A stretch of DNA of 64,000 nucleotides from Blautia parvula (GTDB lineage Bacteria > Bacillota > Clostridia > Lachnospirales > Lachnospiraceae). The notes under the pieces are model-generated. The model saw nothing but the letters and a program-made list of their open reading frames with translations. It made no database searches and was not told where the DNA came from. Positions within the stretch are counted from its first letter, which is position 1; each line of letters begins with the position of its first letter. This document shows positions 1 to 64,000 of the stretch, piece after piece. The translations under genes were made by a program, and so were the position numbers. The stretch spans positions 6,112,501 to 6,176,500 of the forward strand of contig NZ_CP084061.1 of assembly GCF_020215665.1 (NCBI RefSeq), read 5' to 3'.

Positions 1-2033
1 GGGCCACAAAAATGCTGAAATACATAGGCAACATTGTAGTCAATGACCCGACAGCCGGAAAATACCGCTATGAGCCGCCGCGTTTTCCAAAGGTAACGGG
101 AACGAGGAAAGACGGTCTGAAACAGATCCTGGATGCTCGGGGACCCGAAGCGGTAAAGCAGTGGGTGCTGGATCAGAAAAAGCTGCTTATTACAGATACC
201 ACTATGCGGGACGCACACCAGTCCCTTCTTGCCACCAGAGTGAGAACACGCGATATGGTAAAAGGCGCGGAGGGGACTGCAGAGATACTGGCAGATGCTT
301 TTTCATTGGAAATGTGGGGCGGTGCCACCTTTGATGTGGCCTACCGTTTTCTGAAGGAATCTCCGTGGGAACGCCTTGACCTGCTCAGGGAAAAAATACC
401 CAATATTCCCTTCCAGATGCTGCTGCGCGGTGCAAATGCGGTGGGATATACCAACTATCCCGACAACCTGATCCGGGAATTTGTAAAAGAGGCAGCAAGA
501 AGCGGAATAGATGTATTCCGAATCTTTGACTCCCTGAACTGGATCCCGGGAATGGAAATCGCTATGGATGAAGTGCTGAACCAGAATAAGATCGCAGAGG
601 CAACACTGTGTTATACAGGGGATGTCTCTGACCCGAAAGAGGATAAATACACATTGGGATACTATACGGAGATGGCAAAAGAACTGGAGCGGCGGGGTGC
701 CCATATTCTCTGTATCAAGGATATGTCAGGACTTCTGAAGCCTTATGCTGCACATAAGCTGGTGAAAGCACTGAAAGAGGAGACGGGTCTCCCCATCCAT
801 CTCCACACCCATGACACCAGCGGAAACCAGATCGCGGCGCTGCTCATGGCTGCGGAGGCCGGGGCGGACATTGTGGATACGGCTGTTTCCAGCATGTCAT
901 CCCTCACCAGCCAGCCTTCCATGAATTCCCTGGTGGCAGCTCTTTGGGGTCAGGAAAGAGACACCGGCCTGTCTCTGGAACGTCTGCAGGAGCTGACCGA
1001 TTACTGGAGTGACGTGAGGGAGAGATACCGCTCCTTTGAAGGAGGAATCAAATATCCCGCAACAGATATTTACCGCTATGAAATACCCGGCGGCCAATAC
1101 ACCAATCTGAAACCACAGGTGGAGAGCCTTGGCCTGGGACACAGGTTTGAGGAAGTAAAAGAGATGTACCGCACGGTCAATGAGATGCTGGGAGGTCTTG
1201 TAAAAGTAACGCCGTCCTCAAAAATGGTAGGTGATATGGCAATTTTTATGGTCCAGAATGATCTGACACCGGAAAATATTGTGGAGCGCGGAGAAAACCT
1301 GACTTTCCCGGATTCTGCAGTGAGCTATTTCAAGGGAATGATGGGGCAGCCACGCTGGGGATTCCCAAAAGAACTGCAGAGAGTGGTTCTGAAGGGAGAG
1401 ACACCCATCACATGCCGTCCGGGTGAACTGCTTTTGCCCATGGATTTCGATGCGGCAAGAGAGAGACTGAAACAATTTGTTCCGAAACCGGACTGGAGAA
1501 TGGTCATAAGCTGGTGCTTTTATCCTAAGGTTGTAGAGGACTTTTTAAAGAGCCGCAGAGAATACGGTTATATCACCCGCCTGGGCAGCCATGTGTATTT
1601 TCACGGACTTGCCGAGGGGGAGACAAACCGTGTGGAGATAGAAGACGGAAAAACACTTGTCATAAAATATCTGGGCAAGAGCGAATTGAACCCGGACGGG
1701 ACCAGAAATGTATTCTTTGAACTGAACGGCATTCGCAGGGAAGTTTCCGTGCAGGATAAGAGCGCCAAGGTGACTGTGGAATCCATACCAATGGCTGACC
1801 CCAATAATCTGAGCCATGTGGGTGCTTCCATACCCGGACTTGTGAGTAAGATACTTGTAAAACCGGGAGAAAAAGTCAAAAGAAACCAGGTTCTGGCAGT
1901 AGTTGAGGCAATGAAAATGGAGACAAATGTAATCGCACTCATGGATGGAGAGATGGATCAAATCCTTGTAAAAGAGGGGAAAGAGATCAAGGCAGGAGAA
2001 CTGCTTATGACAGTTAAGACAGTAAAAGAATGA
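1..2033 (+). CDS. pyc: Pyruvate carboxylase, C-terminal part (5' end outside window)
   Basis: Cytoplasmic biotin enzyme that carboxylates pyruvate to oxaloacetate. The frame is open to the window edge, and the residues just before the first Met (position 12) read A-T-K, matching the usual pyruvate carboxylase linker RATK(L/M)L.YIGN. The ATG at 12 has no ribosome binding site, so it is internal, and the biotin carboxylase half lies upstream of the window. Visible domains: carboxyltransferase TIM barrel from about residue 58 (TDTTMRDAHQSL, GATFDV, metal-binding HLHTHDTSG), the PYC_OADA helical domain, then a biotinyl domain with the EAMKM motif (biotinylated Lys codon 1914-1916). Read alone it could be taken for oxaloacetate decarboxylase alpha or pyruvate carboxylase subunit B. 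The upstream match favours the full-length single-chain enzyme. Confidence 0.88.
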   Translation, partial: ATKMLKYIGNIVVNDPTAGKYRYEPPRFPKVTGTRKDGLKQILDARGPEAVKQWVLDQKKLLITDTTMRDAHQSLLATRVRTRDMVKGAEGTAEILADAFSLEMWGGATFDVAYRFLKESPWERLDLLREKIPNIPFQMLLRGANAVGYTNYPDNLIREFVKEAARSGIDVFRIFDSLNWIPGMEIAMDEVLNQNKIAEATLCYTGDVSDPKEDKYTLGYYTEMAKELERRGAHILCIKDMSGLLKPYAAHKLVKALKEETGLPIHLHTHDTSGNQIAALLMAAEAGADIVDTAVSSMSSLTSQPSMNSLVAALWGQERDTGLSLERLQELTDYWSDVRERYRSFEGGIKYPATDIYRYEIPGGQYTNLKPQVESLGLGHRFEEVKEMYRTVNEMLGGLVKVTPSSKMVGDMAIFMVQNDLTPENIVERGENLTFPDSAVSYFKGMMGQPRWGFPKELQRVVLKGETPITCRPGELLLPMDFDAARERLKQFVPKPDWRMVISWCFYPKVVEDFLKSRREYGYITRLGSHVYFHGLAEGETNRVEIEDGKTLVIKYLGKSELNPDGTRNVFFELNGIRREVSVQDKSAKVTVESIPMADPNNLSHVGASIPGLVSKILVKPGEKVKRNQVLAVVEAMKMETNVIALMDGEMDQILVKEGKEIKAGELLMTVKTVKE

Positions 2034-33659: not shown

Positions 33660-33743
33660 CAAAGTTCTGAATTGGTGTTGCGGATAACTCATAAAAACGA
33701 CTTTTGGGTTTTGGATAAATTTCATATAAAAAATGGGAAGAGA

Positions 33744-33788
33744 CCTTCGTTTGTGCATGTTGCACAATAAAAACGGGGGCCTTTTTTT
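33744..33788 (+). terminator. Terminator after the LacI gene
   Basis: A 9-bp stem (33744-33752 with 33771-33779, two T-G pairs) is topped by a second hairpin GTGCA/TGCAC (33753-33765) and followed by CCTTTTTTTG. It separates the regulator from the catabolic operon. Confidence 0.75.
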
Positions 33789-33817
33789 GTGTCTTATGGA
33801 TTCGTACAGAAAAGCAC

Positions 33818-33846
33818 TTGACAAAACCGTCAAACCGTCCTATACT
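33818..33846 (+). promoter_or_regulatory. Promoter of the GH32/ABC operon
   Basis: -35 TTGACA (33818-33823), 17 nt, -10 TATACT (33841-33846), near-consensus. Confidence 0.85.
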
Positions 33847-33853
33847 CATATAC

Positions 33854-33869
33854 ATGGAACGGGTTCCAT
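33854..33869. promoter_or_regulatory. LacI-type operator O1
   Basis: ATGGAAC-GG-GTTCCAT, a perfect 16-bp palindrome beginning 8 nt after the -10 box, so it covers the transcription start. Confidence 0.75.
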
Positions 33870-33930
33870 AAAATGTTCCAATAATACCTATATAAATAGG
33901 AGAAAAATGCTATACATTAAGGGAAAGAAT

Positions 33931-33948
33931 TATAGAACCGGTTTTATA
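33931..33948. promoter_or_regulatory. LacI-type operator O2
   Basis: TATAGAACCGGTTTTATA, palindromic except for one base pair, with the AACCGGTT core typical of LacI-family sites. It lies 77 bp (centre to centre about 7 helical turns) downstream of O1, allowing looping between bound repressors. Confidence 0.7.
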
Positions 33949-33972
33949 AAGTGCCATACAGGAGGCGAAAAT

Positions 33973-35637
33973 ATGATACAAACAGGTGAGTATACATGTC
34001 TGGAGATCATGACCAGAACAGTGGAAGGAAAAAAAGGATATGTGGTTCTGAGAGACAAAGAGGGCAGAGAGAACAGATATGAGGCAGGGAAGAAGTATTA
34101 TCAGTGGCTGAAAATCCCCGTGGAAAGACAGAGCAGTTACGAACTGACAAGCCGGGATGCGGAAATATCACTGGCGTATTTAAGCGGCTGTGAAAATATC
34201 CTGGAAAAGGGGATCTGCTTCATAGAACCTGCAGACGGGGGAATTAGTCTGAGCAGCCGGGAAGCGGCAGCCTATTATGACACACCCTATCGGGAACAAT
34301 ATCACTTTGCGCCGTGGAAGAACTGGATGAATGACCCCAATGGCCTTTGCTGGTATCAGGGATATTATCATATGTATTATCAGTACAACCCCCATGGTCA
34401 GGAATGGTCCAACATGTACTGGGGGCACGCAGCCAGCCCGGACCTGGTCCACTGGACACATCTTCCCGTTGTTCTGGAGCCACAGAAGGAGGTGTTGGAA
34501 CAGGCAGATATACGAAAAGGGGGAGCATTTTCCGGAAGTGCGGTGGTGCTGGACGATGAAACGGTTTTCTATCTGACCAGACATCTGGGACCCATGGAGG
34601 ACGGAGAGGAGACCGTGCAGCAGCAGTGGATGACCAGAAGCCGGGATATGCTGGAATTTGAACCGGAGAAGCTGGTGATCGGGGAGCATCCCGTGGGAGC
34701 ATCCTTTGATTTCAGGGACCCTAAGGTATTAAAAGTCGGTGATGTGTGGTACATGGTCCTGGCAAGTGCTGTGGATGGGCAGGCAGCCATACTGCTGTAC
34801 CGGTCTGAAGATATGGAGCACTGGGATTACGTGAAACCCCTGGTTACGGAGCCGGAAGAAGGTGTGCGCTGCTTTGAATGCCCTGACTTTTTCCCTCTGG
34901 ATGGAAGTTTTACTGCGTGGGGAGCACTTATGTGCCACAGGGATGTGTACGGCAGATATCAGATGTCCCGTTATTACATAGGAGAATTCAGGGATGAGAA
35001 TTTTACCGTGAAGAGCACAGGATGGTTTGATTTCGGGAGCAACTGCTATGCCATGCAGAGCTTTGAGCACGAGGGAAGAAGAATCGCCATTGGTTGGATC
35101 TCAGATTTTTACGGCGAACATGTGGAAGTGGAGAACGGCGCCTATGGGAGCATGACCATTCCAAGAGTGCTGCATGTAAAGAATGACAGGCTTTATATGA
35201 CTCCGGCGGAGGAGATCTATACGCTGAAGAGTGAGCGGCTCTATACGGGAGAAAAGGAAAATATCCATCTGGAACACATAGCGGGAAACAGTTTTTATGC
35301 GGAGATCACCTTTTCGGAGAATACGGATTTTAACCTGCTGCTGGGCAGGGATGGGAAGAAAGAGATACGTTTTATAAAAGAAAAAGACTTTGCGGGAATC
35401 CGCACATCCGGTGTGAAAAGTGAGGGAATTTCGTTTCCCGCAGACGTGGATATGGTAAGGGATATGGAGATATTTGTGGACAGAAGAGCAGTGGAAATCT
35501 TTATAAACGGCGGGGAGGCAGCAGGCATCAAGCTGTTTTACAACTCCGGCACAGAAGGGTGTTTTGTACTGGAAGCGGAGAGACCTGAGGCAGTAACACG
35601 GGCAGAAGTTACAAAGATGCAGTCAGTCTGGCAGTAA
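33973..35637 (+). CDS. GH32 beta-fructofuranosidase (sucrose/fructooligosaccharide hydrolase)
   Basis: Releases terminal fructose from sucrose or fructans. Start chosen at ATG 33973 (554 aa) with GGAGG upstream; the frame extends 80 codons over the promoter and is not coding there. The five-bladed catalytic domain starts near residue 104 with WMNDPNG (nucleophile Asp). It has FRDPK (transition-state Asp) and FECPD (acid/base Glu), followed by a C-terminal beta-sandwich. The first 100 residues are a family-atypical N-terminal extension. There is no signal peptide, so it acts on sugars imported by the ABC transporter next to it. Sucrose 6-phosphate is less likely because no PTS gene is present. 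Confidence 0.9.
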   Translation: MIQTGEYTCLEIMTRTVEGKKGYVVLRDKEGRENRYEAGKKYYQWLKIPVERQSSYELTSRDAEISLAYLSGCENILEKGICFIEPADGGISLSSREAAAYYDTPYREQYHFAPWKNWMNDPNGLCWYQGYYHMYYQYNPHGQEWSNMYWGHAASPDLVHWTHLPVVLEPQKEVLEQADIRKGGAFSGSAVVLDDETVFYLTRHLGPMEDGEETVQQQWMTRSRDMLEFEPEKLVIGEHPVGASFDFRDPKVLKVGDVWYMVLASAVDGQAAILLYRSEDMEHWDYVKPLVTEPEEGVRCFECPDFFPLDGSFTAWGALMCHRDVYGRYQMSRYYIGEFRDENFTVKSTGWFDFGSNCYAMQSFEHEGRRIAIGWISDFYGEHVEVENGAYGSMTIPRVLHVKNDRLYMTPAEEIYTLKSERLYTGEKENIHLEHIAGNSFYAEITFSENTDFNLLLGRDGKKEIRFIKEKDFAGIRTSGVKSEGISFPADVDMVRDMEIFVDRRAVEIFINGGEAAGIKLFYNSGTEGCFVLEAERPEAVTRAEVTKMQSVWQ

Positions 35638-35662
35638 CAGCAGTGAGAAGGGAGAGAGGGAA

Positions 35663-36958
35663 ATGAAAAAACGGGCAGTTGCCATACTTCTTGCAGCGAC
35701 AGTGGTATCTACTATGATATCCGGCTGTGGAAATGCAAAGGAACGGGTGAATAAAGACGGAGAGTCTGTGATCACCATCTGGAGTCCCAGTGACGAACCG
35801 GCCATTGAAGAGTGGTGGGAAGAAAAAATCAATGCTTTTAATGCGGAGCACAAGGGAGAAATCCATCTGAAAAGGGAAGCTATTGTTCGTGCGGATTCCT
35901 ATGCTTATGAGGACAAGGTAAACGCGGCGATTACCTCCAAGGACCTGCCGGATATCCTGTATGTGGACGGACCGACGGTTTCCGTATACGCGGCCAATGA
36001 TATTATTATCCCCTTGGATGATATGTTTGCAAAAGAGGACTGGGATGACTTTCTGGATTCCACTAAAAATCAGGGTACTTACGATGGGAAAATCTACGCC
36101 ATCGGCGCAACAGAAAGTTCCGTAGCCCTCTATTACAACCGGGATATGCTTGACGAGGCAGGGATTAAGGCACCGGATAAGCTGGAGGATGCCTGGACCT
36201 GGTCCGAGTTTGCGGATGTAGCCGGGAAGCTTACAAAAGACGGTGTGATGGGCACCAACATCATTATGGATAAAGGGGAAGGTCTTCCTTATGTGCTGGA
36301 GCAGTTCTGGATCTCCAACGGCACGGATTTTGTCAGTGAGGACGGCAGCAAAGCGGATGGCTATATCAACAGCCAGGCCGGTGTGGAGGCAGCCACGTTT
36401 CTGAATGAACTGATTCAGAACGGATATGCCAATCTGGACCCCATCCAGAAGGAATTCCACAACGGAAGGGCAGCCACAATGCTGGGAGGCTCCTGGGAAG
36501 TCGCTACACTGGAAAAGGATTATCCGGATCTGAATTGGGGAGTTACTTATTTCCCCGTTGCGGACAAGGGTGGAACACCTACTTCTCCCACAGGTGACTG
36601 GGCAGCAGCCGTGACCAGGGATACACAGGACAGAGAGGCAGTGCAGGAGGTTATGAATTACCTGTTCTCAGAGGACAATGTGACCACCTACGCCAAGGCA
36701 ATCTCGAAACCGCCCACAAGACAGTCAAGCTACGAAGTGCTCACAGAGTATAACGAATACCCACGCTCTCTTTTTAAAGAGCAGCTTATGGAGACAGGAC
36801 ATCCAAGGCCGAGAACGCCTTCCTACAGTGTGCTCTCCGCAGGATTTTCAGAGGCCATGGTGAACATTTTCACAGGTGTGGACCCGAAAGAAGCGCTTGA
36901 TAAGGTGGCGGAAGATACGGATAAGGATTACAACAAGTATTATGCGGATGAAGATTGA
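35663..36958 (+). CDS. Sugar ABC transporter substrate-binding lipoprotein
   Basis: 431 aa. Signal peptide with lipobox MISGC (Cys about residue 22) anchors it outside the membrane. Family 1 extracellular solute-binding protein fold (VITIWSPSDEPAIEEWW, LPDILYVDGPTVSVYA, TMLGGSWEVATLEKDYPDLNWG). It follows the GH32 gene by 25 nt and precedes two permeases, so the ligand is probably sucrose or a short fructan. No ATPase gene is in the operon, so a shared MsmK-type ATPase is expected elsewhere. Confidence 0.88.
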   Translation: MKKRAVAILLAATVVSTMISGCGNAKERVNKDGESVITIWSPSDEPAIEEWWEEKINAFNAEHKGEIHLKREAIVRADSYAYEDKVNAAITSKDLPDILYVDGPTVSVYAANDIIIPLDDMFAKEDWDDFLDSTKNQGTYDGKIYAIGATESSVALYYNRDMLDEAGIKAPDKLEDAWTWSEFADVAGKLTKDGVMGTNIIMDKGEGLPYVLEQFWISNGTDFVSEDGSKADGYINSQAGVEAATFLNELIQNGYANLDPIQKEFHNGRAATMLGGSWEVATLEKDYPDLNWGVTYFPVADKGGTPTSPTGDWAAAVTRDTQDREAVQEVMNYLFSEDNVTTYAKAISKPPTRQSSYEVLTEYNEYPRSLFKEQLMETGHPRPRTPSYSVLSAGFSEAMVNIFTGVDPKEALDKVAEDTDKDYNKYYADED

Positions 36959-36977
36959 TCCGGGGAGGAGGAGAAAG

Positions 36978-37862
36978 ATGGAAAAAGCCATTAACAAACG
37001 CAGTGAAAAGAAAGCAGCATACCTGTTTGTCATTCCGGCAGTGATCCTGCTGGCGGCATTTCTGATATATCCTGCACTGCAGACAGTCAGATATGCCTTT
37101 ACCGATTACAATATTATGAGGCCCGACCATATTAAGTTCTGTGGATTTAACAACTTTACAGAGCTGTTTGGGGACGGGGATTTCTGGAAGGCGGTTACCA
37201 ATACTCTTTATTTTACCGCGCTGGTCGTACCCTTTCAGACGGTTCTGGCACTGGCGCTGGCCATGCTCATATCGTCCAAAAGAAAAGGTGTCTCCATTTT
37301 CCGAGCAGCATATTTCAGCCCTCAGGTCACCTCCATGGTTGTTGTGGCGATTCTCTGGACCGTGCTCTACAACTCTAACCCGGACAGCGGACTTTTAAAT
37401 GCACTGTTGGTAAAACTGGGAATGGAGCCCTGCGGATTCCTGAATGATCCAAAGACATCCATGAACTCCATTATCTTCATGTCAGCATGGCAGGGAGCCG
37501 GTTACCAGATGATGATCTTTTTAGCCGGGCTTCAGGGTATTCCGAAAGAACAGTATGAGGCAGCCTCCATTGACGGTGCAGGCAGATTAAAAAGCTTCCT
37601 CTATGTCACCCTGCCGGATCTGAAAAATGTGATCAAATATGTGATCATGATCACAGTCATCCAGGCAATGAAACTGTTCACACAGCCATATGTCATGACA
37701 AAAGGCGGCCCCCAGAATTCTACCAGGACCATGGTATATTACGTGTATGAACAGGGCTTCCAGAAGCGTAACTTCGGATATGCCTGTGCAGTGGCTGCAG
37801 TTTTCTTCGTCATTGTGGTCATATTGTCACTGGGCATGAAGAAACTGATCAAAGCGGATTAG
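36978..37862 (+). CDS. Sugar ABC transporter permease (MsmF/UgpA type)
   Basis: 294-aa inner membrane subunit with about six helices. ATG 36978 follows GGAGGAGG; the frame extends upstream into the binding-protein gene. The ATPase-contact EAA loop reads EQYEAASIDGAGRLKSFLYVTLPDLK. It is part of the GH32 operon and pairs with the next permease. Confidence 0.92.
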   Translation: MEKAINKRSEKKAAYLFVIPAVILLAAFLIYPALQTVRYAFTDYNIMRPDHIKFCGFNNFTELFGDGDFWKAVTNTLYFTALVVPFQTVLALALAMLISSKRKGVSIFRAAYFSPQVTSMVVVAILWTVLYNSNPDSGLLNALLVKLGMEPCGFLNDPKTSMNSIIFMSAWQGAGYQMMIFLAGLQGIPKEQYEAASIDGAGRLKSFLYVTLPDLKNVIKYVIMITVIQAMKLFTQPYVMTKGGPQNSTRTMVYYVYEQGFQKRNFGYACAVAAVFFVIVVILSLGMKKLIKAD

Positions 37863-37878
37863 AAAGGAGCGGAAAACT

Positions 37879-38721
37879 ATGACACAGAAACAGAGAACCC
37901 GTCTGGGAAACGCAGTATTTTACATAGGGAATACACTGGTTGCGCTGATCTTCGTATCCCCTCTCATCTGGATGATATCCTCATCCCTGAAGCCGGAAGC
38001 AGGTATTTTTAAGGGACTGAATTCTCTGCGTACGTTTATACCCACGGGAGCGTCCCTGAGCAATTATCTGGAGGTGTTCCAGAGGATTGACATGTGGAAA
38101 TTTATCTGCAACAGTTTGTTTTATGTCTTTGTCATTGTGGTGCTGGATCTGTTTATCAACTCCATCTGCGGTTACGCGCTGGCAAAGTTTGAGTTTAAAG
38201 GGAAAAATCTTCTTCTGACGCTGGTGATCAGCCTTATGGTATTTCCTCCGGAGGCCATTATGCTTCCTATGTACAGGGAGATGGCTGACTTGGGATGGAT
38301 CAACCAGTGGGCAGCGCTTGTGGTTCCCTTTGTGGCAAAATGTTTCAGCATCTATATGTTCCGCCAGTTTTTCCTGGATGTGCCGAATGACCTTTTAGAG
38401 GCAGCAGCCATTGACGGATGCGGCCCGGTGAAAACCTTTTTCCGGATCGTCATGCCTATTTCAGGAACCGTGTATGCCACTGTGCTGATCCTTGATTTTG
38501 TAGCGCACTGGAACGACTTTATGTGGCCTCTGCTCGTGGTGACAGGTGAGGAAAAGAGAACTATCCAATTGGCGATTCAGACATTCTTTGGCTCCAAACC
38601 GATCAACTACGGACCGATCATGGCTTCGCTGACGATCTCGGCGATCCCCATGCTGATCATGTTCATTGTACTTCAGAAATACTATGTGGAGGGAATCGCT
38701 TCCACGGGTATTAAAGGATAA
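37879..38721 (+). CDS. Sugar ABC transporter permease (MsmG/UgpE type)
   Basis: 280-aa partner permease, about six helices. EAA loop: NDLLEAAAIDGCGPVKTFFRIVMPI. It ends in the usual YYVEGIASTGIKG. 16 nt after the previous permease, last gene of the fructan operon; no clear terminator follows before the next promoter. Confidence 0.92.
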   Translation: MTQKQRTRLGNAVFYIGNTLVALIFVSPLIWMISSSLKPEAGIFKGLNSLRTFIPTGASLSNYLEVFQRIDMWKFICNSLFYVFVIVVLDLFINSICGYALAKFEFKGKNLLLTLVISLMVFPPEAIMLPMYREMADLGWINQWAALVVPFVAKCFSIYMFRQFFLDVPNDLLEAAAIDGCGPVKTFFRIVMPISGTVYATVLILDFVAHWNDFMWPLLVVTGEEKRTIQLAIQTFFGSKPINYGPIMASLTISAIPMLIMFIVLQKYYVEGIASTGIKG

Positions 38722-57528: not shown

Positions 57529-58755
57529 ATGCTGCAGCCATACTTTTTAGAGCATATGGTAAATCTGATCCATACTCCGTTTCATTTATTTAGTACAGAT
57601 AAAGAAATTATACAGAAATTCGGTGCCAGGGACATAGAAACTTTGATTTTCGAGAAAAATCCGGAATTTGTGGAGAAAGTATTTTCCCAAAAAAGTGAAC
57701 AGCATCCGGTTATTTTCACGGAGAGCAGCCTGGTCTATGCAATATTTGCCCAAGGGCTGTCAAAGGGAGCGGTAATCATAGCCGGTCCGGTAACGATCGG
57801 TCCTCTGAGCCAGGAAATTCTCATTCAAATCCGCAGATACTATAACCTGGGAAGGAAGAGCGGTTACATACCTCCTGTCTGTCCTCTGGACAAGTTCGTT
57901 TCCGGAGTTTTGCTTCTGCACTGGCATCTCACCGGTGAAGAGCTGTCGGCGGCCCGGCTGTGGAAAAGAAACCAGCAAAATTATACAGCCACCATGAATT
58001 TACAGAACCGCATCTCCCAGGATATTTTTGAACGGCAGGAAAGCGCGGGTCTGCATAACCCTTATGAGCAGGAACTGCGGGAACTGGACAGCATTGAAAA
58101 GGGCGATATCCAGGCTCTGACAAAGAGTATATCAGAGACTTATGAGGGAGAGATCGGAGTCCTTGCAAAAGATCCGCTCCGTTCCCATAAAAATGTGGCG
58201 GTTGGCAATATCACGCTGGCATCAAGAGCCGCCATCCGGGGAGGAATCAGCGTGGAGAAATCCTTTTCCCTGGCAGACAGCCTCATTCAGCAGGTGGAGG
58301 AGATTGATAATGTTCCTGAGGTGGAGGCATTTAAGCGCGAGGCGCAGTTTGTCTATGCCAGGCTTGTGGATGAAGAGAACATACAGGGAGGAGAGAAGCA
58401 GAAGACAAAGACAAATCCTCTGATCGGACAGGTAAAGGATTACATATTCAGTCATCTGCATGATCCCATTCAGGTAGCTGACATTGCGGAACATATGGAT
58501 ATCAATGCAGACTATCTGTCCCATCTTTTCAGCTCTCAGGAAAAGATCACCATCACCAATTACATCCGCAGAGAGAAAGTGCGGAGGGGAGAAAATCTTT
58601 TAAAGTATTCGGATTACCGGATTCAGGAAATTGCCTTTTATCTTGGATTCTGCTCCCAAAGCCATTTCGCCAGGGCATTTCAGCAGGTGGTGGGTATGAA
58701 TCCCAATGAGTACAGAAGGAAATTCGGAAATAGGAAAAAATGGAAAATGAAATAA
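57529..58755 (+). CDS. AraC family regulator, likely activator of the galactanase gene
   Basis: 408 aa. The C-terminal AraC/XylS domain (about 305-400) has two helix-turn-helices (QVADIAEHMDINADYLSHLFS and YRIQEIAFYLGFCSQSHFARAFQQVVGMNPNEYR). The N-terminal 290 residues form a sensor region I do not recognise; no membrane helix or receiver is seen. It sits 143 bp upstream of the GH30-GH43 gene. A perfect direct repeat of 12 bp lies next to that gene's -35 region, so it probably activates it in response to a galactan-derived sugar (inference). Confidence 0.88.
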   Translation: MLQPYFLEHMVNLIHTPFHLFSTDKEIIQKFGARDIETLIFEKNPEFVEKVFSQKSEQHPVIFTESSLVYAIFAQGLSKGAVIIAGPVTIGPLSQEILIQIRRYYNLGRKSGYIPPVCPLDKFVSGVLLLHWHLTGEELSAARLWKRNQQNYTATMNLQNRISQDIFERQESAGLHNPYEQELRELDSIEKGDIQALTKSISETYEGEIGVLAKDPLRSHKNVAVGNITLASRAAIRGGISVEKSFSLADSLIQQVEEIDNVPEVEAFKREAQFVYARLVDEENIQGGEKQKTKTNPLIGQVKDYIFSHLHDPIQVADIAEHMDINADYLSHLFSSQEKITITNYIRREKVRRGENLLKYSDYRIQEIAFYLGFCSQSHFARAFQQVVGMNPNEYRRKFGNRKKWKMK

Positions 58756-58813: not shown

Positions 58814-58898
58814 TAGAAATGGTAGGCAGCATGACCGGCAGGACATGCAGCCCGGGAAATATCTGGGTGTACCAAAAAGGAAAAAAGGAGGAAAGAGA

Positions 58899-61800
58899 AT
58901 GAGAAGTTTTAAAAGAGGGATTGCTGCAGCCACTACCGCAGCACTTTGCCTGACATCCATACCGTTAGGCGGACTTCAACTGGTCTCTGCAGCGGACGCG
59001 GACAGAGTGATCAAGCTTCAGCCGGGCCTGGCATCTACCTTTCATGACACCAATGAGGATGGACTTGGTGAATTTGAGGGATGGGGTACATCACTTTGCT
59101 GGTGGGCAAACCGCCTTGGCTACAGTGATAAGATGACAGAGGAAGCGGCAAGGGTTTTCTTCAGTGATGAGGGCCTGGATATGAACATTGGCCGTTACAA
59201 TGTGGGCGGTGGTGATCTGGTAGGAGAGCCGACAAAAGTGCCGGTAAACGAAAAAGCAGAATTTTACGACCTGGAGACAGAAGGACGCAAACCAGAGTAC
59301 AAAGGCAAAAAAATGTCTGTCGGAACAAATACAGCAATGAAAAGCCTGAAATACACAGTATCTGATGCGGACTTCGGTATTACTAAAGGCAGTGAGGTTG
59401 GTAGCTTTCAGTCGATTGGCTGGATAAACAAACTGGATGACGAGCCAGGCGATGGTGACAATCTGCGTTATACTGTTAAAGCCGAGGAAACAGGAAATTA
59501 TACGGTTAAACTGCTCCTTACTCTTACCGGAAGCAATAAGCGTGATGTAGCAATACGTGTTAACGATGAAAAGGATTATCTTGTCGATGCAGACACCATT
59601 AATAGCCATATCATTGCTTCAGGCAATAATAATATGCTGTTTCTTGTAACAATCTCCGATGTTGCGCTGAATGCAGGAGACAATACGATTAATATCGCCG
59701 GTAAAAGTGACTGGACACTTGATTTTGTAAAAATGGCAGTCATCAAATCCGGTGAGGAAGGCAAACTGCCGGAAGGGGAAGAATTCCTTCACAGTGAGCA
59801 TATCACCCGTTCTGATTCCGCAATTCCGGGATATGCAACGGATGTAACAAAGATAAATGAAAGTGAACATGAGCTTGCATGGTATGAAGAGAATTACGAC
59901 AGAGCCGACGCAAGCTGCGGCTATGCCTGGAATTATAACTGGAAAGCAGATGAAAATCAGATCAATATTTTGAAAGCAGCTGCTGAGGCCAGCGGTGAAG
60001 ACTTCATAGCCGAGGCATTTTCCAATTCCCCGCCGTATTTTATGACAAACAGCGGATGCAGTTCAGGGGCAGTAGATTCCAATAAGGATAATCTAAGGAC
60101 TGACTCTTATCGTGCATTTGCAGTCTATATGGCTGATGTGATCGAGCACTGGAACAAGGAGGGTGTTATCACCTTTCAGAGCACAACACCTATGAATGAG
60201 CCGTATACAAGTTACTGGGGAGCTTACAGCAATAAGCAGGAAGGCTGCCATTTTGACCAGGGAGAATCCCAGTCAAAGATTATTGAGATGCTGAATGAAG
60301 AGCTGAAGAAGCGGGAAATCAATATCATAATCTGTGGCACAGATGAGACAAGTATTGATACGGCCATTACCTCCTACAATGCTCTTTCTGATGAAGCAAA
60401 AGGAATCATCCAGAGAATCGACACACATACATACGGCGGTTCCAGACGTGCTGAGCTGAAAGAACTGGCAGAGAAGGAAAACAAGAATCTGTGGATGTCA
60501 GAGGTTGACGGTGCCTATACTGCAGGAACAGATGCAGGAGAGATGAGCGCAGCCCTTGGTCTGGCAAAACAAATGATGACAGATGTAAACGGACTGAAAG
60601 CAAATGCATGGATTTTATGGAATGCCATTGATATGCATGTGGATAAAGAGATAAAAACAAGCAGCGATGCGGATTATGCCAGTCTGGAAGAGCTCTATAA
60701 CCGTGTTAACATGAACAGCGGATACTGGGGAATCGCCATCGGCGATCATGACAATCAGGAAATACTGCTTACAAAGAAATATTATGCATATGGCCAGTTA
60801 TCCAGATATATTCGTCCCGGATATACAATTATCGGTTCCAGCGATGACACACTGGCAGCATATGATCCGGAAAGCGGAAAAGTTGTCGTTGTGGCAGTGA
60901 ACACAGCAGGAGAGGACAAAACATGGAAATTTGATCTGTCCAGCTTCAGTACCATGGGCGACAATGTGACTGCTATACGTACAAGCGGAACATTAAAAGA
61001 CGGTGAAAACTGGGCTGATGTGTCTTCAGAAGATACCATTGCGGCAGACACTGCAAAGAAGAGTATTACTGCAGTACTGAAGGCAAATTCCATCACAACT
61101 TATATTGTGGACGGTGTGACTTATGACAGCAGTACAGAAGAAATCGTCAGGATTGATGATGTAAATGTATATACTGTGGAAGGCGTTGCAGCAGAACTGC
61201 CGGATACGGTAGAAGTGGTTACAAACAAAAACAATACGCTGGAGAAAAAAGTTACATGGGATCTGGAAGGCGTTGACCTGACAAAAGATACAAAAGTTAC
61301 AGGTACCGTGGAAGGCACCACAATGACAGCAACCGCTAACGTACAGGTTGTGGCTCCAAACATGATTTATTTCATTGACTGTAACAGCCCGGAATCTCCA
61401 AAATACGCAGCTATGGACCAGTATGCAGATCTTTTAAATGAAACAGCAGATCAGGCGTATACAGAAGGTTCATGGGGATACCTAGATGAATATGGTAAGT
61501 ATAACGGAACGGTGACGGATGAATATGATACAGGTTGGTATGCGAATAAAGATCAGGTAATTAAGTATACCATTCCGCTGGAAGCGGGTAATTACAAAGT
61601 TAATTTTGGCTTTAAGGAGTGGTGGAATCAGCAGCGAGAAATGGTTATTACTGCAGAACAGGACGGAAAAACTGTAGAGATTGGAAAAACCAACACTTGG
61701 AATGGAAACAACCCGTGGAACACATACTCACAAGATATTACAATTGAAAATGCCGGGGATGTAACATTCTGTTTGGCAAAGCAGAAAAATAACGATCCTG

Positions 61801-64000
61801 TACTTTCCTTCATCCAGATTCAAAAGGTTCTGGATTTAAGTGAACTGCAGGATGCCATAACAGCAGCGGGTGAAGTGGACAGAGCCCAGTACCCGGCAGC
61901 AAAGCTGGCAGTTCTGGATGCAGCAGTAGCAGCAGGCAGAGAGCTGATGCTGAAATCTGCAACAACACAGGACCAGATCCAAGAAGGCGCAGCGGCGATT
62001 CAGGATGCCATTACAGGATTAGGAGAAGGCTATACGGAAGAACAGATAGCAGCTAATGATTATGTTCTCTATCTTGTAAACTGCGGAACTTCTGATGCCT
62101 CTGTCGTTCCGGATGGTTACAGACGTGGTTTATATCAGTCAAATGTTGACCAGGAATACAGTGCAGATGCGGAAACAGGCTTAAGCTGGGGATATGAGCC
62201 GAATGATGAAAATTCAAAGATCGTTAAAGGCGGCAGCGGTGCAGCGGATATCACAAGCAGTTATATCTATATGGCCGACACAGGCGTAACGTTTATCAAA
62301 GATGTCAGTGGATTCAAATATAAATTTGAAGTTCCTCAGAGATCCAATAATGATTATGTTGTAACAGCCGGTTTCAAAAATCCGTGGGATACCAGAAATG
62401 TGGATATTAAGCTGGAAGGAGAAACTGTTGAGAGCGATCTGAAACTCACAAAAGGCCAGTTAGTTGAGAAATCCTATAAAGTTGAGGTTCATGACGGAGA
62501 ACTGAATGTGATGGTTCACAGCCCAAAACGTACGAACCAGTACGGAGACCCGGTTCTCAGTTATCTTATGGTAGAGGCAGTTGCAGCTTATACGGTGGAG
62601 GGCCTTGAGGCTAAGATCAATTCCTATGAGGCATCAATGGATGGACACAGCTATTCTGACGCGACAAAAAAAGACTTTGATCTTGCTGTGACAGAGGCAA
62701 GAAAATTGATCGAAGAGCAGTCAACAGACCAGAAAGCCATTAAAAATGCGCTGAATGCACTGGAAGAAGCATATAATGCGCTGAAAGAAGTATTCACCTA
62801 CAGCTCTATCACAGGAACGAACGGAGCACAGCTTTTTGACAACAACGGTAATAAGATACAGGCACACGGCGGACAGATTCAGCAGTTCACCATCGATGGA
62901 GAAACAAAATATTACTGGTACGGCGAAGATAAGACAAATGGATACCGTCCGGTAGTAGGTGTTCATCTGTATACCTCTACAGATTTGTATAACTGGACAG
63001 ATGAAGGTGCCGTTCTCAAGAGTATTCCGGTATCCGAAGAGGATTACGGTAAAGACCAGGAAGAGGGCTATGAGGCCGATCTTTCTATCTTTGAGACAGA
63101 CGAATATTTCAGCAGCCTGTACGGAGATTATAAAGACCAGGCACCGGATGATACAGAGAATTACAGCAGCAAACTGGAAGAGGTTTACTGGAATCTGGCT
63201 GAGGACAGAACCGTTATTGAGCGTCCGAAAGTTCTGTACAATGACGCAACAGGAAAATATGTCATGTGGTTCCATGCAGACGGACGTACACCGACCAACA
63301 CAGCAGACTACGGCAAAGCAAGAGCTGGTGTTGCCATCAGCGACAGCCCGACAGGTCCATTTAAGCTTTTAGGCACATACAAACTGCACGACAGCGCGGA
63401 TGCAAACCACAGTTGGGATAATGTGGGCGGAGCCGTGCGTGATATGAATCTGTTCAAGGACGATGACGGACAGGCGTATGTGATCTATTCTTCTGATGGA
63501 AACCTGACAACTTATATCGCAAAATTAAACGCAGATTACACAGGACTGATCGCAGATCCTGCGGATGCAGTGGAAGGAACAGGCAAAGAAGGAGAAGAAC
63601 TGACAGCGTCGGATTATACAAGAAACTTTATCGATGCTTCCAGGGAAGCTCCGGCTATGTTTAAGTACAAAGACAAATATTATATCATCAACTCCGGCTG
63701 TACGGGATGGAGTCCGAATAAAGCACAGTATGCAGTAGCGGATCATCCTCTTGGACCGTGGACCGTTATGGGAGATCCCTGCGTTGGCGATACAAAAGGT
63801 ACTACCTTTGATACGCAGAGCACCTGTGTATTCCCTGTGGATGCAGCAAACGGCAAATTTATTTACATGGGCGACCGCTGGTTCAATCCGGATTCCGGCG
63901 GGGATTTAAGTGATTCCAGATATGTATGGCTGCCGGTAGAATTCCTTCCGGGCAATCAGATTCAGCTGAAAAATTATGCAAACTGGACACTGGAAGAACT
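58899..64000 (+). CDS. Secreted GH30-GH43 multidomain galactanase (3' end outside window)
   Basis: At least 1700 residues; the frame is open to the window edge. ATG 58899 has AAGGAGG 7 nt before. Signal peptide about 1-32. GH30 catalytic domain: GWGTSLCWWANRLG near 55, acid/base E434 (TPMNEP), nucleophile E535 (WMSEVDG), interrupted at about 116-287 by a beta-sandwich CBM35-like insert. Then a Big_4 Ig-like domain (746-821), a carbohydrate-binding-like domain (822-977), a FIVAR helix bundle (977-1045), a second binding-like domain (1047-1230) and a second FIVAR (1232-1300). A GH43 domain starts about 1305 with IQAHGG (Q1321). The first motif is that of GH30_5 endo-beta-1,6-galactanases, and QAHGG is seen in GH43_24 exo-beta-1,3-galactanases. 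A type II arabinogalactan substrate is inferred. A cell-wall anchor may lie beyond the edge. Confidence 0.88.
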   Translation, partial: MRSFKRGIAAATTAALCLTSIPLGGLQLVSAADADRVIKLQPGLASTFHDTNEDGLGEFEGWGTSLCWWANRLGYSDKMTEEAARVFFSDEGLDMNIGRYNVGGGDLVGEPTKVPVNEKAEFYDLETEGRKPEYKGKKMSVGTNTAMKSLKYTVSDADFGITKGSEVGSFQSIGWINKLDDEPGDGDNLRYTVKAEETGNYTVKLLLTLTGSNKRDVAIRVNDEKDYLVDADTINSHIIASGNNNMLFLVTISDVALNAGDNTINIAGKSDWTLDFVKMAVIKSGEEGKLPEGEEFLHSEHITRSDSAIPGYATDVTKINESEHELAWYEENYDRADASCGYAWNYNWKADENQINILKAAAEASGEDFIAEAFSNSPPYFMTNSGCSSGAVDSNKDNLRTDSYRAFAVYMADVIEHWNKEGVITFQSTTPMNEPYTSYWGAYSNKQEGCHFDQGESQSKIIEMLNEELKKREINIIICGTDETSIDTAITSYNALSDEAKGIIQRIDTHTYGGSRRAELKELAEKENKNLWMSEVDGAYTAGTDAGEMSAALGLAKQMMTDVNGLKANAWILWNAIDMHVDKEIKTSSDADYASLEELYNRVNMNSGYWGIAIGDHDNQEILLTKKYYAYGQLSRYIRPGYTIIGSSDDTLAAYDPESGKVVVVAVNTAGEDKTWKFDLSSFSTMGDNVTAIRTSGTLKDGENWADVSSEDTIAADTAKKSITAVLKANSITTYIVDGVTYDSSTEEIVRIDDVNVYTVEGVAAELPDTVEVVTNKNNTLEKKVTWDLEGVDLTKDTKVTGTVEGTTMTATANVQVVAPNMIYFIDCNSPESPKYAAMDQYADLLNETADQAYTEGSWGYLDEYGKYNGTVTDEYDTGWYANKDQVIKYTIPLEAGNYKVNFGFKEWWNQQREMVITAEQDGKTVEIGKTNTWNGNNPWNTYSQDITIENAGDVTFCLAKQKNNDPVLSFIQIQKVLDLSELQDAITAAGEVDRAQYPAAKLAVLDAAVAAGRELMLKSATTQDQIQEGAAAIQDAITGLGEGYTEEQIAANDYVLYLVNCGTSDASVVPDGYRRGLYQSNVDQEYSADAETGLSWGYEPNDENSKIVKGGSGAADITSSYIYMADTGVTFIKDVSGFKYKFEVPQRSNNDYVVTAGFKNPWDTRNVDIKLEGETVESDLKLTKGQLVEKSYKVEVHDGELNVMVHSPKRTNQYGDPVLSYLMVEAVAAYTVEGLEAKINSYEASMDGHSYSDATKKDFDLAVTEARKLIEEQSTDQKAIKNALNALEEAYNALKEVFTYSSITGTNGAQLFDNNGNKIQAHGGQIQQFTIDGETKYYWYGEDKTNGYRPVVGVHLYTSTDLYNWTDEGAVLKSIPVSEEDYGKDQEEGYEADLSIFETDEYFSSLYGDYKDQAPDDTENYSSKLEEVYWNLAEDRTVIERPKVLYNDATGKYVMWFHADGRTPTNTADYGKARAGVAISDSPTGPFKLLGTYKLHDSADANHSWDNVGGAVRDMNLFKDDDGQAYVIYSSDGNLTTYIAKLNADYTGLIADPADAVEGTGKEGEELTASDYTRNFIDASREAPAMFKYKDKYYIINSGCTGWSPNKAQYAVADHPLGPWTVMGDPCVGDTKGTTFDTQSTCVFPVDAANGKFIYMGDRWFNPDSGGDLSDSRYVWLPVEFLPGNQIQLKNYANWTLEE

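Follow-up and report, generated by a model that had tools for sequence, protein, structure and literature searches.

A GH30_5-like and a GH43_24-like domain in one secreted chain of Blautia parvula, a candidate surface enzyme for type II arabinogalactan

The 3' end of the Blautia parvula DNA analyzed in this study (hereafter the window; 64,000 nucleotides, bases 6112501–6176500 on a single 6.247-Mb contig) raises the question of whether a single polypeptide serves both galactan linkages of arabinogalactan, and whether such a chain is peculiar to this genome or shared with its relatives. The initial annotation, made from the window alone, proposed that a GH30 and a GH43 domain are joined in one secreted protein, and this observation was confirmed. 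In the literature covered, arabinogalactan breakdown by gut bacteria was treated mostly in Bacteroides and Bifidobacterium; the gene described here represents a conserved candidate surface enzyme for this substrate in the Lachnospiraceae, which form a large group among the bacteria of gut and rumen.

The gene and the architecture of its product

The frame starts at 58899 on the forward strand, is open through the window end (64000) and reaches its stop, as located in the whole genome, at window coordinate 66452 (L002:8953), i.e., the gene extends 2452 bases beyond the window and encodes a complete product of 2517 aa. The longest open reading frame would begin at 58845, giving 2535 aa and renumbering the two GH30 glutamates as E452 and E553. 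Since the motif AAGGAGG lies 7 bases before the ATG at 58899, this start, also chosen in the initial annotation, was preferred, which makes 2517 aa the most likely length.

The modules are arranged in the order signal peptide, GH30 with an insert, Big_4, malectin-like, FIVAR-like, malectin-like, FIVAR-like, GH43, Big_4, malectin-like, FIVAR repeats and a tail composed of SAKTGDE, a hydrophobic stretch and RKRKRS (Table 1), several of the module edges being set by eye. The signal peptide postulated earlier was recognized by its basic start, hydrophobic stretch and VSA end, and the Ig-like, binding and FIVAR modules said to separate the catalytic domains were recovered as Big_4, malectin and FIVAR matches, the FIVAR family being represented by six stretches across the whole protein (hmmscan). 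The type of the first malectin-like module was present in 39 of 41 proteins featuring both catalytic domains in one frame (hereafter fused proteins), and that of the second also stands before the homologous, separate GH43 domain in genome G004. The initial annotation had overlooked two parts, namely, a CBM35-like insert within the GH30 domain and the 3' end of the gene, which was obtained from the whole genome and adds the second Big_4, the third malectin-like module, further FIVARs and the KTG/transmembrane/basic tail.

Table 1. Features of the fused gene and its upstream neighbor. Module residues are counted from 58845; E434 and E535 are counted from the ATG at 58899.
Feature	Position in window	Residues	Strand	Basis
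AraC-type regulator gene, directly upstream	57529..58755		+	HTH_18 2.1e-18; TIGR04094 131 bits, below cut-off 200
Ribosome-binding site AAGGAGG	58885..58891		+	sequence; 7 nt ahead of ATG 58899
Gene part within window	58899..64000		+	open frame; runs on to 66452
Signal peptide	58899..58991	19-49	+	by eye
GH30 catalytic domain (GH30_5-like), split by insert	58992..61124	50-760	+	24td 1.4e-39; profile 1.3e-63
Stretch with CBM35-like module, loop 2 of GH30 barrel	59217..59798	125-318	+	CBM_35 and CBM-like matches
GH30 acid/base Glu	60198..60200	E434	+	NEP motif; aligns with E217 of Sa16Gal30A; 41/41 fused
GH30 nucleophile Glu	60501..60503	E535	+	SEVDG motif; aligns with E320 of Sa16Gal30A; 41/41 fused
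Big_4 Ig-like domain	61152..61316	770-824	+	Pfam match
Malectin-like module 1	61356..61820	838-992	+	Malectin 7.5e-06; edges by eye
FIVAR-like segment 1	61821..62036		+	by eye
Malectin-like module 2	62046..62585	1068-1247	+	resembles module 1 (6e-06); edges by eye
FIVAR-like segment 2	62586..62792		+	by eye
GH43 catalytic domain (GH43_24-like)	62790..63989	1316-1715	+	6eug 1e-58, 3vsf 2.1e-46; profile 5.6e-81 for 6eug
GH43 Glu recognizing C-4 hydroxyl (IERPK)	63219..63221		+	alignment, role from excerpts of PMC7939473; 40/41 fused, 1 cut off
GH43 catalytic acid Glu (REAP)	63645..63647		+	alignment, role from excerpts of PMC7939473; 40/41 fused, 1 cut off
GH43_24 catalytic base Gln (TQST)	63816..63818		+	alignment, role from excerpts of PMC7939473; 40/41 fused, 1 cut off
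Third malectin-like module	beyond window	1798-1966	+	after GH43 and second Big_4

The catalytic domains and the module nested in the GH30 barrel

Comparison of the GH30 domain with solved structures by phmmer placed 24td (Sa16Gal30A, GH30_5) first and the second match at 2.7e-14. With a profile of 56 rows, hand-thinned from 90 GH30 frames, 24td was followed by 7n6h (GH30_10; 6.7e-22; the same enzyme as 7n6o) and 3clw (GH30_4; 2.6e-15), so that GH30_5 was clearly ahead of the other GH30 subfamilies having solved members. Against this assignment, an hmmscan of the whole protein at E ≤ 0.01 listed no GH30 family, and for the homologous protein of genome G008, neither GH30 nor GH43 was listed. In the genome search with PF14587, the gene scored 66.3 bits (cut-off 27), and the same family was listed by hmmscan for shorter relatives in G031 and G004.

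As stated in the initial annotation, E434 and E535 are embedded in the appropriate motifs. Furthermore, the equivalents of Asn216, Glu217, Gln229, Tyr294, Glu320, Trp350 and Asp354 of Sa16Gal30A were kept in all 41 fused proteins and in 49 other GH30 frames, Asp354 being kept in 47 of the latter. The Gln of the GH30_5 site has been reported to discriminate galactose from xylose (PMC13431644). The window protein thus shares with Sa16Gal30A, an endo-beta-1,6-galactanase of Streptomyces avermitilis, the GH30 motifs, the Glu pair and the equivalents of Asn216, Gln229, Tyr294, Trp350 and Asp354, whereas the latter enzyme is described with a single catalytic domain, without a module in loop 2 and with a distal sugar site (PMC13431644). 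This distal site, reported for several GH30_5 enzymes (PMC13431644), includes Trp341, which is replaced by Gly in 40 of the 41 fused proteins; Trp222 is replaced by Tyr in all 41. The residues of subsite -2, Pro355 and Trp359, were left unaligned by phmmer and by the profile, and the residue following the Asp is Met in the window protein.

For the GH30 domain, proposed earlier to be of the endo-1,6-galactanase type, the resemblance to GH30_5 and the intact catalytic residues support the assignment, but its 'endo' part has to be qualified. Cleavage may be endo or exo, because GH30_5 also includes Bl1,6Gal of Bifidobacterium longum, an exo-beta-1,6-galactobiohydrolase (PMC10850190, PMC7889515), and because the cleft of Sa16Gal30A has been reported to resemble a pocket that accommodates two galactoses (PMC13431644). 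It is therefore conceivable, albeit not the favored reading, that the GH30 domain acts like Bl1,6Gal, in which case both sites would be exo-acting, with galactobiose and galactose as products. The loop 2 insert might make the cleft still narrower; however, Sa16Gal30A, the closest solved relative, is itself named an endo enzyme.

The loops of the GH30_5 cleft have been reported to lack major insertions (PMC13431644). The GH30 domain of the window protein departs from this description by a stretch of 194 residues with a CBM35-like module in loop 2, located between the GGGD and HITRSD motifs, and short GH30 relatives lack such a stretch. The distance between the flanking motifs was at least 300 in 31 of 39 fused proteins, in 7 of 9 long unfused proteins (≥1000 aa) and in none of 35 short GH30 proteins (counts from 90 GH30 rows, six without the first and one without the second motif being left out). 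BLAST detected the insert in 32 of the 41 fused proteins. Among the 23 inserts aligned for family scans (38 were located), Pfam at E ≤ 0.1 matched CBM_35 in 20 and the PL4 'CBM-like' domain also in 20. For the insert of the window protein, the values were 2.6e-05 and 24.9 bits (cut-off 28) for CBM_35 and 2.5e-06 and 27.9 bits (cut-off 27) for the CBM-like domain, and the insert profile gave a single match below 0.1 among solved structures (8zvk, 4.4e-05). Since the second loop of Sa16Gal30A lines the cleft (PMC13431644), the CBM35-like module should, by analogy, sit beside the GH30 active site. If this is true, such a binding module within a catalytic loop would be of practical use in the enzymology of plant cell-wall glycoproteins.

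The idea that insert and fusion form one evolutionary package was rejected: despite strong-looking raw counts, independent tree pairs were non-significant (six pairs, median p 0.625). Fused proteins of the Pseudobutyrivibrio type (L050, L053, L055–L057, L059 and L060) possess approximately 980 extra N-terminal residues and no GH30 insert; in L055, the one scanned, this part contains LamG and aBig_2.

Alignment with solved relatives showed that the GH43 domain begins at IQAHGG, in agreement with the initial annotation. In the sequence search against solved structures, 6eug and 3vsf were followed by 6euf, 7bys, 7byv, 7byx, 5flw and 3nqh at 5.6e-20. The GH43 profile (36 rows) ranked 6eug, 3vsf, 6euf, 7bys, 7byv, 7byx and 5flw highest (276 to 135 bits), then 3nqh ('Glycosyl hydrolase'; 113 bits, 1.5e-31), with GH43 enzymes of the xylanase/xylosidase type at 59 bits or less (5.9e-15 or weaker). 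Of these structures, 6eug (with 6eui) represents BT3683, 3vsf Ct1,3Gal43A and 7bys/7byv/7byx Pc1,3Gal43A, 6euf is presumably BT0265, and 5flw carries the enzyme name in its own entry label. The domain is thus closer to exo-beta-1,3-galactanases than to other GH43 enzymes, and with its catalytic residues intact, the assignment to a GH43_24-like exo-1,3-galactanase type is supported.

Ct1,3Gal43A (3vsf), BT3683 (6eug/6eui) and Pc1,3Gal43A (7bys), all GH43_24 exo-beta-1,3-galactanases, share an active-site set of Glu, Glu and Gln, in which one Glu serves as acid, Gln replaces the usual Asp as base, and the other Glu recognizes the C-4 hydroxyl (PMC7939473). This set is present in the window protein. 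Unlike the latter, the three enzymes have no GH30 domain in the description excerpted from PMC7939473, where Pc1,3Gal43A is given a CBM35 behind its GH43. Seven positions were checked in the 41 fused proteins: one is conserved in all 41 rows, and the other six are conserved in 40 rows, with a gap in the last. This row is taken to be L075, whose GH43 is cut by the locus end. In six other GH43 frames, the first checked position has one gap.

Accessory or degenerate domains are frequent in giant surface proteins, and one of the two catalytic domains might accordingly be a relic or serve mainly for binding. This appears highly improbable, considering that the catalytic residues of both domains were kept in the 41 fused proteins despite divergence to a mean identity of approximately 64% (38 fused proteins).

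Fused and separate forms among relatives

In the own genome and 60 relatives, the GH30 part was matched in nine of 61 genomes. Two members of the same genus, G008 and G009, encode the whole protein (2547 and 2560 aa) with 78% identity over the full length. In a third, G004, the two domains reside in neighboring genes (L017:7086-14841), the GH43 gene preceding the GH30 gene. Both genes also encode FIVARs and a dockerin, and parts of the fused protein align with each of them. The side-by-side position of these dockerin-bearing genes hints at a cohesin-based complex.

Wider surveys were performed on 397 genomes of the family (at 1e-15) and 291 genomes of the class (at 1e-40); as only part of the first-look candidates per genome was scored (e.g., 4 of 7), the resulting counts are lower bounds. 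Within the family, at least 47 genomes matched the GH30 and at least 46 the GH43 profile, and both domains were located by coordinates in one frame in at least six (G000, G421, G218, G185, G201 and G402). In addition, the GH30 frame of G301 showed a GH43 match that was weak and split in two, and G144 and G221 had the two matches in nearby frames. In the class, at least 17 and at least 29 genomes matched, with both domains in one frame, among the candidates scored, in the window's own genome only. In this genome, scoring of 4 of 7 GH30 and 4 of 6 GH43 first-look candidates gave, at E ≤ 1e-15, one GH30_5-like and one GH43_24-like place, both in the frame studied.

The best 80 of 572 relatives gave 78 loci, of which 38 were fused, 35 had GH30 only and five carried GH43 within the locus but in a frame of its own (one of these a weak match of 106 bits); this sample is biased to the query, includes loci cut by contig ends and may overlap with the family survey. 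The statement in the initial annotation that these enzymes usually occur as separate proteins therefore applies to most genomes sampled, but the fused form is common in the nearest relatives of this gene. GH30 precedes GH43 in all 38 fused frames and in three further ones. A chance or assembly join was dismissed in view of the same architecture in G008, G009 and the 38 loci. Adjacent genes might also be misread as a fusion, as in L024, L027, L038 and L068, where the second gene is in frame with the first; each second gene has an apparent signal peptide of its own, and these cases were taken as separate genes.

For 38 fused proteins, a set that excludes L047, L075 and L085 as truncated at contig ends, the identity matrices of the two domains correlated with r 0.79, a value reached in 0 of 2000 permutations, the mean pairwise identity given above applying to each domain. 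The GH30 tree required ten changes of the fused label (nine with five rows left out), four of them forced by starred branches, and the GH43 tree four, two of them forced; a single origin of the fusion was thus not supported by either tree. Separate forms stand among fused ones on the trees, indicating that fusion and splitting have both occurred or that the gene has moved.

As judged from sequence, the domain identity, the intact catalytic residues and the conserved pairing are established. The fusion is not unique to the window and constitutes a conserved variant of known enzymes rather than a new kind. The same family pair is known from B. longum as Bl1,3Gal (BLLJ_1840, GH43_24) and Bl1,6Gal (BLLJ_1841, GH30_5), which have adjacent locus tags but are two proteins instead of one chain (PMC10850190); Bl1,3Gal is surface-anchored (PMC8939339). 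A parallel in chain layout is BlArafE of B. longum (GH43_22 and GH43_34), which likewise combines two arabinogalactan catalytic domains in one surface-anchored chain, both of them, however, being arabinofuranosidases (PMC8939339). No description of GH30_5 and GH43_24 in a single chain was found in the excerpts of open-licence PMC literature searched.

Proposed function, surface attachment and gene neighborhood

Taken together, the protein very probably is a secreted, surface-held depolymerase of type II arabinogalactan with two active sites, of which substrate, products, accessory-module binding and sortase anchoring are inferred. The GH43_24 site would take backbone galactose off the non-reducing end, past side chains, and the GH30_5 site would shorten beta-1,6 chains, best once arabinose is removed. 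Substrate binding is probably the task of the malectin-like modules and of the CBM35-like module predicted next to the GH30 cleft, and the FIVAR repeats together with the KTG/transmembrane/RKRKRS tail may keep the enzyme on the cell surface, where galactose and beta-1,6-galacto-oligosaccharides would be freed close to the cell. Beta-1,6- and beta-1,3-galactanase activities are reported to act in synergy on arabinogalactan (PMC12751061, PMC8424115), and GH30 beta-1,6-galactanases to act on dearabinosylated chains only (PMC8424115, PMC7889515). The absence of Trp341, the unmatched Pro355 and Trp359, the loop 2 insert, the lack of a listed arabinofuranosidase family and the non-LPXTG tail count against the depolymerase reading.

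The substrate might also be another galactan-bearing glycan, such as a microbial beta-1,3/1,6-galactan or the side chains of pectin, instead of plant arabinogalactan protein. The hmmscan of the whole protein listed neither an arabinofuranosidase nor a glucuronidase family, and a neighboring DUF5695 protein has no known role, both of which would fit such a substrate. This alternative nevertheless seems unlikely, as the breakdown of type II arabinogalactan calls for exactly this combination of beta-1,6 and beta-1,3 activities, and the same two enzymes are encoded in an arabinogalactan-protein cluster of B. longum (PMC10850190).

For arabinogalactan as substrate, a more specific and clearly tentative proposal is that of a lineage-specific machine, in which the GH30_5 enzyme, with a putatively galactan-binding CBM35-like module placed through its cleft loop, would grip the beta-1,3 backbone during the adjacent side-chain cut and then pass it, freed of side chains, to the GH43_24 site, so that the cuts would be spatially coupled, with a C-terminal anchor varying by species (KTG tail, dockerin or choline-binding repeats). 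In any case, the protein lends itself to examining whether two cooperating sites benefit from being on a single chain, a question that is open according to the excerpts of PMC8939339.

With regard to attachment, the notion of a wall-bound enzyme is backed by the membrane/wall-type tail and by sortase matches in the genome, seven of eight being over the family cut-off and one under; the LPXTG motif looked for at the 3' end is, however, represented by SAKTG, within SAKTGDE. Pfam scans of the tails of 10 of the 41 fused relatives revealed a dockerin in L021 and choline-binding repeats in L028 and L035, the latter being found also in L051. In the other seven scanned tails, no Pfam anchor domain was detected; these tails contained Big_2 or fn3 (L023, L030, L031 and L043), Big_4 (L057) or nothing (L040 and L050). 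L050 and L057 end in a KTG/transmembrane/RKRKL tail.

In G008 and G009, the AraC-type regulator gene likewise stands immediately before the fused gene. Homologues with at least 284 aligned residues were found in 13 of the 78 loci (best 80 of 572 relatives), comprising eight fused, four with neighboring genes and one other; in 12 of the 13, the homologue lies directly upstream on the same strand, and in L048, it is located approximately 4.4 kb upstream.

Elsewhere in the window (33733–38721), translations by reading indicated a GH32-like sucrose/fructan enzyme and ABC sugar transporter genes, with a LacI-type regulator just before them. Downstream of the fused gene and outside the window, 36 repeats (core GAGGGTGTGGATTGAAAT) form a CRISPR array (L002:9240-11640) that separates the gene from a LacI/DUF5695 pair. 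Cas1 was matched once in the genome, approximately 2.75 Mb from this array; the 3,870-base locus of that match contains, on the opposite strand, 14 copies of the 14-base core of these repeats. The DUF5695 gene, situated behind the LacI-type regulator (by eye), encodes a second giant surface protein (L002:13590-19001, ending in L019) with DUF5695, LamG, Big_4, FIVAR and a TGD-type tail, and its start was also present in G008.
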